52,840 bases of DNA from a virus. The notes under the pieces are model-generated. The model did no database searches and was not told the origin of the DNA. It worked only from the letters and a program-made list of their open reading frames with translations. The stretch covers positions 1 through 52,840 of the IMG/VR virus record IMGVR_UViG_3300042350_002745; one strand, written 5' to 3'. The position numbers were made by a program, and so were the translations under genes. This document shows positions 42,603 through 50,092 of the stretch, piece after piece (position 1 is the stretch's first letter; every line of letters begins with the position of its first letter).

Positions 42603-42636
42603 AAAAAACCACCCACTGGTTGCAGCCGGTGGGTGG
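42603..42636 (-). terminator. Intrinsic terminator inside the nucleotidase leader (attenuator)
   Basis: Reading leftward: CCACCCAC (42629-42636) pairs with GTGGGTGG (42609-42616), then TTTTTT (42603-42608). It lies only 24 bases before the nucleotidase ATG, so it would abort transcription unless the stem is prevented. The 5' arm and loop contain ACCGGCTG, complementary to CAGCCGGT upstream in the leader. Confidence 0.8.
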
Positions 42637-42799
42637 TGTATTTGTCAGGCACACAGAAATGAGGTTGTTAAAATCCGCTGCCTGACCGGCTGTTAAGGTT
42701 TAATTGGCGGATAGATAGATTACACCAAGAAACCCAGGCACACACCGGTCGCCGTTGTTTTGCGGCTTCAAGTGGAGAGAGCCGCGAGGCAATCAACCT
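42637..42799 (-). promoter_or_regulatory. Structured leader with predicted antiterminator pairing (riboswitch-like)
   Basis: Non-coding, between the 41-residue gene and the terminator. Reading leftward: hairpin GCGGCT/AGCCGC (42780-42785 with 42762-42767); two copies of a T-G-T-G-T-G-C-C-T-G-like motif, either able to pair with CAGGCA; stem TGCCTGAC/GTCAGGCA (42644-42651 with 42679-42686); and CAGCCGGT (42685-42692), which can pair with the terminator arm at 42623-42630. Mutually exclusive pairings before a terminator are the mark of an attenuator or riboswitch. No known riboswitch class was recognised. Confidence 0.5.
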
Positions 42800-42967: not shown

Positions 42968-42996
42968 ATTGTACTACAAACGTCGGGACTTGTTTA
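42968..42996 (-). promoter_or_regulatory. Candidate promoter for the 41-residue gene and attenuator leader
   Basis: Reading leftward: -10 TACAAT (42968-42973, 5/6), spacer 17 bases, -35 TAAACA (42991-42996, 4/6). It lies after tRNA-like RNA A and before the basic protein gene, where a new start is plausible. Confidence 0.4.
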
Positions 42997-43007
42997 CAAG
43001 TCCCGAC
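42982..43007. promoter_or_regulatory. 26-bp perfect dyad overlapping the promoter -35 region (candidate operator)
   Basis: A 12-bp perfect inverted repeat (GTCGGGACTTGT with its complement, 2-base centre TT). It covers the -35 hexamer of the promoter at 42968-42996 and lies 4 bases from the 3' end of tRNA-like RNA A. It could be an operator for a dimeric repressor or activator (the phage carries a LysR-like gene), or a processing hairpin. No T-tract follows, so it is not an ordinary terminator. Confidence 0.5.
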
Positions 43008-43011
43008 AAAA

Positions 43012-43077
43012 GGATCAGGCGGGTTTGGTTACCCGCTTGGCGTGGGATACTCGATGTTCCAACCACGCCGCCGACCC
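43012..43077 (-). ncRNA. tRNA-like structured RNA A (smallest member)
   Basis: 66 nt. Reading leftward: closing stem GGGTCGG (43071-43077) with CTGATCC (43012-43018), whose G-T pairs exist only on this strand; 7-bp hairpin GGCGTGG/CCACGCC; and a 5-bp arm GCGGG/CCCGC (loop TAACCAAA) directly abutting the closing stem, as the T-arm does in tRNA. It lacks D- and anticodon-like arms of normal size, so it is not a canonical tRNA. It ends in TTTT. Confidence 0.55.
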
Positions 43078-43138
43078 TCGCAACTTCGCCGCCGTTGGCA
43101 GTAAGGCAGTTGCCGCCTGTGTCTAGCATCGCCAGAAA

Positions 43139-43348
43139 CTACGCTGGCTCTAGGTTGTCCTCGAAATACTTCTGCGCGACCAACCATTGATCGCCGTGGT
43201 TCTTTGGGTTTCGTGCAATCATGTCGCCTTCCTTGGGGCTACCTGCTGCCTTGTCCGTCTCGGATATGCTGACGCCCGAAACGTCCTCGCCCGCAACATA
43301 CGGGCGCATTTCCGACAACCCTTTACGTTTGTACTGCTTCCAACCCAT
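43139..43348 (-). CDS. Conserved small phage protein
   Basis: 69 residues. The pattern M-R-P-Y-V-A-G-E-D, V-S-I-S-E, G-D-M-I-A-R-N-P-K-N-H-G-D-Q-W-L-V-A is one I recognise as recurring in small phage proteins of unknown function. It is soluble, with no Cys. It sits between tRNA-like RNAs B and A, so it is co-transcribed with them. A weak ribosome site (AAAGG) lies 12 bases upstream of the ATG. Confidence 0.7.
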   Translation of the reverse strand: MGWKQYKRKGLSEMRPYVAGEDVSGVSISETDKAAGSPKEGDMIARNPKNHGDQWLVAQKYFEDNLEPA

Positions 43349-43414
43349 AACTCAAGCCTTTCGTAAAAAACCATCAACTGAACTGCCTCGCACGTCTTTC
43401 GTGCGACTGGCAAA

Positions 43415-43525
43415 GGATCGGGCGGGATTCAAACCCGCCTCGGAGTCGCAATGCTCCGTCGTCGGCCAGTCCTCAGAACTCGATTCGCTGTTGCCTCACA
43501 CGTGTCGCCACCACGCCGCCGACCC
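43415..43525 (-). ncRNA. tRNA-like structured RNA B
   Basis: 111 nt. Closing stem GGGTCGG (43519-43525) with CCGATCC (43415-43421), the third pair being G-T only when read leftward. Next come CGG and a 4-bp arm CGTG/CACG with a 7-base loop containing GG, like a D-arm. A 5-bp arm CGGAG/CTCCG follows, like a long variable arm. Last is GCGGG/CCCGC with loop TTTGAAT, one base from the T-loop consensus, abutting the closing stem. An anticodon arm with U33 cannot be placed confidently, and the length exceeds class II tRNAs by about 20 nt. Confidence 0.55.
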
Positions 43526-43702
43526 TCGCCTTCTCTCTGGCTGTCACGCACTGTCGCTACTATTTCCCCACAAACCATGCGTTATTGTTGGGTGAACACG
43601 ATGCCGTAGCTGGCAGCGGTTGCCTATCCTGCTAAGCAACCGAGTGGTCTTTTTTTCTCCCTTTCGGGGTAGGTCTGTCGACCAACCAGGAACCACTTCA
43701 AA
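43526..43702 (-). other. Non-coding spacer with a 9-bp hairpin between RNAs C and B
   Basis: No gene is seen. Reading leftward, GGTTGCTTA (43633-43641) pairs over 9 bp with TAGGCAACC (43618-43626) around a 6-base loop. One pair is T-G only on this strand, supporting a leftward RNA. It could be a further diverged member of the RNA family, or part of a precursor. An A-run/T-run (43651-43657) is also present. Confidence 0.45.
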
Positions 43703-43866
43703 GGGTCGGACAGGAATCGCACCTGCTGACCACACCCGCCTGGGCGTGTTCGCGACGAGCCCTGCCGCGAATCGGGCTTGTCCTTATTTACCGCTTGTGC
43801 CGTTGGTGTCCCGCTAAGGCCCTATCGAACACAGTAGTATCGTGTCACTGTCCACGACGCCGACCC
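43703..43866 (-). ncRNA. tRNA-like structured RNA C (largest member)
   Basis: 164 nt. Closing stem GGGTCGG (43860-43866) with CCGACCC (43703-43709). It is followed by CGT and the D-arm-like CGTG/CACG with loop GACAGTGA, then a long branched interior including TTCGCG/CGCGAA. A T-arm-like GCAGG/CCTGT with loop TGCGATT (the T-loop consensus but for one base) abuts the closing stem. It begins 10 nt past the stop of the ssDNA-binding protein gene, so it is in that transcript. Confidence 0.5.
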
Positions 43867-43876
43867 TCAGGCCCGA

Positions 43877-45037
43877 TCACTGATCGGGCCATTCCGAATC
43901 CCACGCCTCGTCGGAACCAGAACCAGCGGAGGCTGGTGCTGGTTCTGGTGCGACTTCGGGCGTGGTCCCTGTCGCTTGAGCCTGCGGCTCTCGCGACAGA
44001 TCCTTCAAGTTGACCTTGTGAGGGTCATCGTTTCCGTCAAAGACGCTGATTACCCCGTTGACATTCTTGTGGATCGTGACTTTACCCAAGGTGACGTGGT
44101 AAGCCACGTCACCCTTGGCAGGCCAAGCAGCCACAGGAGCCGAGACGGCAGGGGCCGATACCGCAGGAGCCGGAGCAGCAGGAGGCAAGGTCGTCGTAAC
44201 GACCGGCCTTTGCACCTTAGGCTCAGGGGCAGTCGGCTTCGGAATATCCAAAGGTTTCGGCGTTGGCGGTGGTTGCACCACCGCCGAAACCGTAGCCACC
44301 ACTTCGGTGTCCTCGGACACCGAAGCGTCGTCCGCATCTTCGTCGTAAAACTTGGCTCGCAAAGTCTCTGCACTCTCAATAACCAGCAGGTTATCGAGTT
44401 GTAGGGCTTGGGCCAAGATCGCCTCGGGGACGCCGCCGTGTCGGTCGAAATCGAACGAGACGGCCTCATAGCATTTGTTACCTGGAAGCACCTTCTCAGC
44501 AAAGGTGACATAGATGAACGCCCCTTCGACAGGATCGGCGAAGTAGTCAATCCACTCGCGACCGGGGATCGCGACCTTGGCCGAGACGGTCGTGTTCAAC
44601 TGTTTCGAGAACAGGTGGTAGCTGTGATCGAACAGCACGACTTGATTCTGCTCAGGCAACCACACTGTGTACAGTGTGCGTTGCTTGGCATAATACTTCT
44701 TGGCCGTTTCCTTGGTCAACTCGCCCGATTCGATAGCAGCACTGATGCCTTCGCAGATCGGGCATTTGCCGCCCTTGGTCAACCTCGGGCAGATCGCGTA
44801 TCCCTTGTTGTCCGACCCGAGGTTGTTGTGGACGTAGTAGTCTCGGGCGTAGTGCAAATCGCCGTCCTTCGCCACCGGGTGCTTCGCACCCGCTGGCACA
44901 GTGTACGGCAAGATGACCATCTTGAACGTGCCTGCCTTGTCTACCTTGAGAGACTTGATGCCTTGCGGGATTCGGAGAGTCCTGCCAGCAGGGCCTTCTG
45001 CGGCCTTATCTCTGGTTTTTTTCGATGACAATGCCAT
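43877..45037 (-). CDS. Single-stranded DNA-binding protein, gp32-like
   Basis: 386 residues. The N-terminal part is basic. The core has Y-A-R-D-Y-Y-V-H-N-N and a metal site built by C-P-R-L-T-K-G-G-K-C-P-I-C (about 82-94), as in T4 gp32-type proteins, then aromatic strands (LYTVWLPEQNQVVLFD). A long Pro-Ala-Val-rich linker (about 255-320) includes a small K-G-D-V-A-Y barrel. The protein ends acidic (SGSDEAWDSEWPDQ), the usual tail that recruits replication partners. It coats ssDNA for the helicase, recombinase and polymerase. Confidence 0.85.
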   Translation of the reverse strand: MALSSKKTRDKAAEGPAGRTLRIPQGIKSLKVDKAGTFKMVILPYTVPAGAKHPVAKDGDLHYARDYYVHNNLGSDNKGYAICPRLTKGGKCPICEGISAAIESGELTKETAKKYYAKQRTLYTVWLPEQNQVVLFDHSYHLFSKQLNTTVSAKVAIPGREWIDYFADPVEGAFIYVTFAEKVLPGNKCYEAVSFDFDRHGGVPEAILAQALQLDNLLVIESAETLRAKFYDEDADDASVSEDTEVVATVSAVVQPPPTPKPLDIPKPTAPEPKVQRPVVTTTLPPAAPAPAVSAPAVSAPVAAWPAKGDVAYHVTLGKVTIHKNVNGVISVFDGNDDPHKVNLKDLSREPQAQATGTTPEVAPEPAPASAGSGSDEAWDSEWPDQ

Positions 45038-49575: not shown

Positions 49576-49679
49576 GGATCGAGTCGGAATCAAACCGACG
49601 TTGTTCAGCATCGTGAGCTACAGTTGCGGTGTGCCGCATACCGTTTTACGGGCCACGAACCCCAACTCACTACCGATCC
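49576..49679 (-). ncRNA. tRNA-like structured RNA E
   Basis: 104 nt. Closing stem GGATCGG (49673-49679) with TCGATCC (49576-49582), the last pair G-T only in the leftward reading. It is followed by TA (as tRNA positions 8-9), GTGA and a G-rich loop, then TGCGG/CCGCA as an inner hairpin. The T-arm-like GTCGG/CCGAC with loop TTTGATT abuts the closing stem. A stem CGATG/CGTCG with an 8-base loop CTGAACAA is an alternative that competes with the T-arm. Confidence 0.55.
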
Positions 49680-49768: not shown

Positions 49769-49908
49769 GGATCGGGCAGGATTGGCTACCTGCTTACGGC
49801 GTCTGGGATGCGTTCGTTTGCCCCAATTCTCTGCCGAGTCTCTACGTTTCCGCTTCTCTTGCCGATGCCGCTTATTTCAAATCGTGGTTATCGCCACGCC
49901 GCCGATCC
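49769..49908 (-). ncRNA. tRNA-like structured RNA D1
   Basis: 140 nt. Closing stem GGATCGG/CCGATCC is perfect (49902-49908 with 49769-49775). Then comes CGG and the D-arm-like CGTG/CACG with an 8-base loop, as in B and C. The abutting arm GCAGG/CCTGC has loop TAGCCAAT, nearly that of RNA A. The interior is unresolved. It is followed by TTTT. Confidence 0.55.
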
Positions 49909-49990: not shown

Positions 49991-50092
49991 GGATCGGGCA
50001 GGTGATTCTCCTGCCAAGTCGCTTATGGGCGAAGCCTCTGGTAGCGTTGTCGCGATCAACACCCCCGCAATCTTTAGGATTGCCGCCGATCC
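49991..50092 (-). ncRNA. tRNA-like structured RNA D2 (best cloverleaf)
   Basis: 102 nt. Closing stem GGATCGG/CCGATCC (50086-50092 with 49991-49997). Then CGG, arm CAATC/GATTG with loop CTAAA, arm TGTTG/CAACG with 7-base loop ATCGCGA (U33 present; nominal anticodon CGC), a larger arm CGCT/AGCG with inner GGC/GCC, and GCAGG/CCTGC with loop AGAATCA abutting the closing stem. This gives four arms plus the acceptor, like a class II tRNA. The T-loop and D-loop consensus bases are absent, so function as a tRNA is doubtful. Confidence 0.5.

Follow-up and report, generated by a model that had tools for sequence, protein, structure and literature searches.

What kind of RNA is encoded by short stretches of a phage genome that end like a tRNA and share one acceptor-like stem, and yet differ widely in length? 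A preliminary description, made from the sequence alone, had reported three such stretches (A, B and C) and had offered three possible functions: decoys for tRNA-targeting nucleases, processing substrates or a new RNA class. They lie in a 52.8-kb record of an uncultured tailed phage (the whole stretch of DNA analysed, hereafter the window), which carries terminase, portal and head genes. Its minus-strand replication genes code for a DnaB-like helicase, DNA polymerase A, a methyltransferase, a dNMP kinase, a clamp loader and an SSB-like protein, and a RecA-like protein, a 5'-3' exonuclease and others are also encoded. In this study, the elements and their relatives in other phages were analysed computationally; the earlier observation proved to be correct, and understated.

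Elements and flanks in the window

The lengths of A (66 nt), B (111 nt) and C (164 nt) and their coordinates, all on the minus strand, held exactly, and the claimed acceptor, the 5-bp arm with the loops TAACCAAA, TTTGAAT and TGCGATT and the stacked CYGAYCC were all present. Six copies had been mentioned, and D, E and F are the further three (Table 1). A scan of the window for GGNTCGG acceptors that close over 7 bp and stack on a 5-bp hairpin returned A–F and one extra weak match (26016-25809) that was set aside; the six GGRTCGG closures compare with a mean of 0.17 and a maximum of two in 60 dinucleotide shuffles. In each of the six, an acceptor-like stem of 7-8 bp stacks on a T-like arm of 5 bp, and a D-like arm is also present; A, B, C and D have an eighth pair, A-1:U73. 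This tRNA-like part is termed the chassis, and the RNA carried within it the payload. The payload arm is wholly absent from A, which has no anticodon domain at all, and this 66-nt type is conserved in eight phages. A, B and C lie downstream of the SSB gene and D, E and F just upstream of the DNA polymerase gene.

Table 1. Coordinates of the elements and of neighbouring features in the window
Feature	Positions	Strand	Description
SSB-like gene	43877..45037	minus	stop 10 nt upstream of element C; probe for finding the phage group
Element C	43703..43866	minus	164 nt; structured payload; D-arm loop GACAGTGA; T loop TGCGATT
Leader hairpin	43528..43545	minus	GACAGCCAGAGAGAAGGC; directly upstream of B
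Element B	43415..43525	minus	111 nt; chassis as in A, payload in between; D arm GCGTG-GTGGCGA-CACGT; T loop TTTGAAT
Element A	43012..43077	minus	66 nt; acceptor GGGTCGG/CTGATCC; D-like arm GGCGTGG..CCACGCC with long loop; T-like arm GCGGG-TAACCAAA-CCCGC
T-run and perfect inverted repeat	42982..43011	minus	GTCGGGACTTGT/ACAAGTCCCGAC; directly after A; terminator-like
Element D	49991..50092	minus	102 nt; D arm GCAATC-CTAAA-GATTGC; T loop AGAATCA
Element E	49769..49908	minus	140 nt; D loop CGATAA; T loop TAGCCAAT
Element F	49576..49679	minus	104 nt; acceptor GGATCGG/TCGATCC; T arm GTCGG-TTTGATT-CCGAC

The flanks also recur. The sequence GACAGCCGGAGAGACGGC stands ahead of other tRNA-like elements in relatives; a scan with the 18-nt leader gave at least 126 places, and tRNA-like closure follows in only about a dozen of 126. 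The inverted repeat after A is also seen behind the SSB-adjacent element in many relatives. Just downstream of it, at 42603-42642, lies a near-perfect 20-bp inverted repeat with A and T tracts at its flanks, which is terminator-like. The spacers between elements (43526-43702 and 43078-43138 in the window, and those of the arrays at loci L161 and L191) are themselves conserved and structured-looking, ending in ..GACAGCCRGAGAGAMGGCGA or ..GGCAAC..GTTGCGA, and are common to unrelated arrays. A hammerhead-like CTGATGA in one spacer was rejected, as it is not conserved (CTGTTGA in L191).

A covarying tRNA top half

A search with the SSB-like protein gave 25 contigs, and nearly all of those reaching past the gene have an element directly after it. 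A 3'-end pattern in IMG/VR found 74 stretches with about 85 elements carrying GGRTCGG acceptors; such elements were present in 30 of 30 records tested, always on one strand, with up to eight in one record. Altogether, the IMG/VR scans yielded 205 distinct elements of 64-305 nt at 177 loci. As this sample was obtained by pattern searches, one of them not exhaustive, the true numbers are larger and the composition is biased; near-duplicate contigs are present, and most matches of an initial IMG/VR scan, which used a 15-nt pattern, were due to chance.

One genome-contig match lay on a contig of a Planctomycetaceae MAG, where an integrase-like region is close by as judged by sequence reading. In a second genome of the same class, three near-identical prophage-like regions (L229, L230 and L231) share one element and differ by a cassette of roughly 650 bp directly after it, present in one of them. 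Given this contig and these regions, planctomycetes are the likely hosts of this phage group; a D-arm search of 294 planctomycete-phylum genomes gave one match. Besides a small ORF, the cassette contains a leader hairpin and a further tRNA-like RNA, whose acceptor is TCGCGGG.

The closing stem was assessed using two D-arm patterns that are blind to the acceptor and T arm and that matched 107 and 58 distinct places. Closure in exact register, by a 7-bp acceptor and a 5-bp T arm, was found at 85 and 38 of these, respectively (123/165 in total), compared with one and two (three in total) when the acceptor was taken 11 nt off. The acceptors of this set are of all kinds. The shared acceptor of the preliminary description is a trait of this phage group, relatives using many. 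An eighth acceptor pair, -1:73, occurs in 93 of the 123, against 49.5 in shuffles (at most 66). When 56 chassis sequences were aligned (A1), changes on both sides were found in seven of seven acceptor pairs and four of five T-stem pairs, with 256 double-changed cells against 62 when shuffled and a covariation score of 0.709, against 0.129 when shuffled and at most 0.111 when slid. The 100% pairing in this alignment arises by construction, full closure having been required, but the variety of pair types does not. The D stem of the D-arm set is fixed by the search pattern; in the GGRTCGG group the D stem covaries (CGTGG/CCACG, CGCGG/CCGCG, CATGG/CCATG, AGTGG/CCACT and GAATCG/CGATTC). A lack of covariation in the closing stem of relatives would have refuted the preliminary claim; covariation was found, and the claim stands.

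The acceptor GACTCAG/CTGAGTC was observed with differing payloads at L421, L461, L474, L475, L481, L423, L441 and L445, and some of its members encode ACCA at the 3' end. CCA is absent from most encoded 3' ends of the elements.

The contact between D-loop position 18 and T-loop position 55 is the classical elbow of tRNA (PMC4810234). In the chassis, positions 19 and 56 are nearly invariant, and the 18:55 combinations are A-G (40), G-U (32) and A-U (1), with a mutual information (MI) of 0.90 bits against a shuffle maximum of 0.10. Because 18 and 55 covary, the RNA folds with a tRNA-like contact between the D and T loops, and no other evidence speaks as strongly for a folded, tRNA-like RNA as this elbow covariation. 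Matching of D-loop and T-loop classes was also found independently within the GGRTCGG group: their MI is 1.49, whereas the highest value among 20,000 shuffles was 1.11, and G-rich D loops go with TTY T loops (12:1 versus 1:27, Fisher 2e-8). Furthermore, in the E type the D and T loops change jointly while the payload is unchanged, the combinations being CGGGAA-TTCGAAT, CGGTAA-TGAAAAT, CGTAA-TGCGATT and CGATAA or CGCAA-TAGCCAAT. A sub-class with the D loop ATGGTG (for example L385, L395, L416, L446, L455 and L460) has the non-canonical T loop GTCAGAA in seven of eight cases, the elbow apparently being re-registered.

The confinement of G-T stem pairs to one strand had been taken as a sign of selection on RNA, and this held in relatives: among closures with one non-Watson-Crick pair, the element strand has G.U in 29, A.C in six and another mismatch in 11. 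Since G.U exceeds A.C by 29:6, selection is inferred to act on the transcribed strand. This bears on the possibility that the elements are DNA recombination sites, integron attC-like or of a tyrosine-recombinase core type, with moving cassettes and folding as a by-product. Such a reading is supported by the cassette-like gain or loss between near-identical prophages, by the T arm, whose halves form an inverted repeat around 7-8 nt of spacer, and by the shuffling of payloads, T loops and flanks. However, the G.U to A.C ratio, the 18:55 covariation and an orientation that agrees with the upstream gene in 151 cases against 39 are signatures of RNA, and the closing stems share no sequence across phages, which a recombinase would need. 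In addition, the elements do not show the attC core GTTRRRY with bottom-strand folding, the ends varying freely with compensation and without a common core, and the G.U bias marking the transcribed strand. Recombination sites are accordingly regarded as very unlikely.

Loss of the anticodon arm and exchange of payloads

The preliminary claim would also have been refuted if the stretches were standard tRNAs of a known class, and they are not. ARAGORN called no tRNA in the window, and Rfam 15, searched there on the element strand at E up to 10, gave neither tRNA (RF00005) nor another plausible family; a tRNA-Sec match within B (E 0.78) lies on the opposite strand. A canonical anticodon arm (5 bp with a 7-nt loop) was found in one of the 205 elements and is absent from the other 204; ARAGORN calls five of the 205 as tRNAs and, in tmRNA mode, none. 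Over the window and 12 relative loci, only genuine or near-genuine tRNAs matched Rfam 15. In the loci scanned, the tmRNA model gave only a 17-nt sub-threshold piece, elsewhere than an element, and no ribozyme model (theta/HDV-like or hammerhead) reached threshold, a sub-threshold hammerhead II match in L423 lying away from the element. The tRNA-like reading and the statement that the elements are unlike a normal phage tRNA array were both upheld.

The elements resemble tRNA in the 7-8 bp acceptor stacked on a 5-bp T arm, the D arm, the T loop and the 18:55 elbow, and their 8-bp acceptors, sometimes with G-1:C73, resemble those of tRNA-Sec and tRNA-His. They differ in having a payload instead of an anticodon arm, in the alternative A18-G55 elbow pair and in the chassis consensus C8, G9 and A48, where tRNA has U8, A9 and Y48. 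Alanine identity via G3.U70 was considered and rejected, 3:70 being A-U, G-C, G-U or U-A in members. In tmRNA, too, a tRNA-like top half carries a large domain instead of the anticodon arm; however, ARAGORN recognized in none of the 205 a tmRNA with its mRNA-like tag frame and pseudoknots, no tmRNA match falls over any element, and the payloads are unrelated between members.

Decaying or intron-bearing phage tRNA genes were considered as a source. Some members are near-normal, such as L161 3354-3427 (55.7 bits to RF00005) and L129 5332-5399 (58.1 bits). Genuine tRNA-Met or tRNA-Arg genes lie near elements in some SSB-group relatives, and one site, recognizable by its matching flanks, is occupied by a genuine tRNA-Arg in L124 and by an 87-nt element in L127; element F is placed by its downstream flank at what is apparently the same site. 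However, decay does not produce covarying pairs in many different acceptors or an elbow whose two loops are matched anew, and at most a weak signal of an anticodon stem around the payload exceeds chance: the search for a universal closing stem gave only 44 against 29 for 5 bp. This origin is considered very improbable. As side observations, near-normal tRNAs with a GGRTCGG acceptor occur at L161 3354-3427, L207 883-804, L185 5193-5125 and L127 1915-1983 and have odd anticodons according to ARAGORN (TCA, CTA, TTG and TTTA, two of them stop-reading), and a tRNA-like 67-mer at L129 5332-5398 has its anticodon loop cut to about 4 nt (CTGGA-GGCA-TCCAG).

The payload was seen only once in 135 of the 205 elements, and 26 payload types recur, riding on different acceptors and T loops. 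One type is found on four acceptors (L403, L413, L442 and L443), and L126 and L489 have a common payload with differing acceptor, D loop and T loop. The E payload type exists in six phage versions with four different T loops and one compensatory change. The payload of C is also found in L156 and L438, with seven compensatory pairs that include a payload helix and acceptor pair 3:70, which is G-C, A-U and U-A in the three. Modular exchange of payloads is shown by these cases. GNRA hairpins with 3-bp stems number 21 on the element strand, against 8.7 expected and a shuffle maximum of 17, and five on the other strand. Payload stability is only slightly greater than that of random sequence (mean z of -0.65 versus -0.29), so many payloads are possibly loosely structured or partner-dependent. 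No antisense match of payloads to their own locus or to neighbouring phage sequence was found, and no 6-mers of note are shared across payloads. At L184 406-658, the payload of a 253-nt element nests what ARAGORN calls a whole tRNA-Val(CAC).

It remains possible that the elements are decoys that soak up enzymes or defence effectors acting on the tRNA top half (CCA end, acceptor and elbow), such as toxins that modify the tRNA 3' end, or EF-Tu, with the payload as padding or diversification. The conserved part is exactly the top half, a single record may hold as many as eight copies, real tRNAs adjoin elements, and phages are known to use tRNAs against tRNA-targeting defence (PMC10264068). However, if the payload were padding, its recurrent types would not be maintained with compensatory changes across different phages. 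The missing anticodon arm rules out anticodon nucleases as targets of almost every element, and the decoy function first offered is to that extent disfavoured; a new RNA class and a processing substrate are favoured among the three.

Among known RNAs, the closest are the tRNA-like structures of viruses and the band C and band D RNAs of T4, small stable phage RNAs whose function has been unknown since the 1970s (PMC4933390). The latter derive from the T4 tRNA cluster. The elements are like them in kind as small phage RNAs, without direct sequence comparison and with the stability of the elements inferred. BLAST of chassis pieces against 50,697 phage records (INPHARED), T4-like records among them, gave no match, BLAST being weak for such short conserved parts. 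The 3' tRNA-like structures of plant viruses such as TYMV imitate the elbow, their D and T loops associating in almost the same way (PMC4810234); they form genome 3' ends with a pseudoknotted acceptor, whereas the elements are discrete and internal with a normal helical acceptor. The TMERs of the gammaherpesvirus MHV68 are viral tRNA-like RNAs that carry other RNA and are matured by tRNA enzymes; unlike the elements, they carry the payload outside the tRNA fold, as a 3' miRNA hairpin, and the virus is eukaryotic. HDV-like theta ribozymes of gut phages are tied to phage tRNA genes (PMC10879173), but these are self-cleaving ribozymes beside a tRNA, and the loci scanned here gave no ribozyme match above threshold. 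No description of the class was found in the literature searched, which left out preprints and most subscription journals. The elements apparently form an undescribed, widespread and categorically new class of phage RNAs, which is stated with fair confidence; were the class already in an unseen paper, they would be new members of it.

Gene context and proposed role

The elements are intergenic (some mechanical ORFs overlap them), with both flanking genes in the same direction in 97 of 171 cases. In unrelated phages, the neighbours are again genes for SSB, DNA polymerase, RecT, RecE, exonuclease, helicase-primase and methyltransferase, and in L464, from another group, an element follows an SSB-like gene. 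By analogy with tRNAs in mitochondrial transcripts, the folds might serve as mRNA punctuation, being cut by RNase P or RNase Z to separate or stabilize early messages, with the released RNA as a by-product. The intergenic position, the shared direction of the flanking genes and the place directly after SSB in the phage group, and after the SSB-like gene in L464, would suit this. However, punctuation needs no payloads, least of all hypervariable ones of 40-250 nt with internal covariation, and the payload-less A type would suffice everywhere; it is judged unlikely.

The reading preferred here, at a probability of roughly 0.55, is that a tRNA top-half chassis, probably matured by the host, carries interchangeable payload RNAs and constitutes a new phage RNA class. 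There are no expression or processing data, and the processing, stability, payload function and target are inferred. In this view, the elements would be transcribed along with the early replication and recombination genes; host RNase P would read the acceptor and elbow and free the 5' end from the operon transcript, RNase Z or exonucleases together with CCA addition would finish the 3' end, and the product would be a stable small RNA. The tRNA elbow is recognized by both RNase P and RNase Z (PMC4810234), and maturation by host enzymes is proposed because the conserved part is what those enzymes see, while the variable part is what decoding needs. The host enzymes might nevertheless not accept the chassis, since positions 8, 9 and 48 differ from tRNA. 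The near-random stability of the payloads, the missing CCA at most encoded 3' ends and the lack of antisense matches likewise speak against this reading. The least certain step is that the payload would act in trans, probably in host takeover or counter-defence, as suggested by the early-gene position and the per-phage repertoires. A bolder reading, against which the balance tips slightly, is a general RNA-effector platform of uncultured phages, an elbow chassis made and matured by host tRNA enzymes with a large, exchangeable payload repertoire, in which each type would have a different host or defence target.

Hundreds of members with strong covariation would add a new kind of phage RNA, one that was missed because its middle is hypervariable and because it was not found in cultured phages. 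The class would be a naturally occurring case of a tRNA scaffold that bears a payload RNA, and would give targets for asking what non-decoding phage tRNA-like RNAs do.
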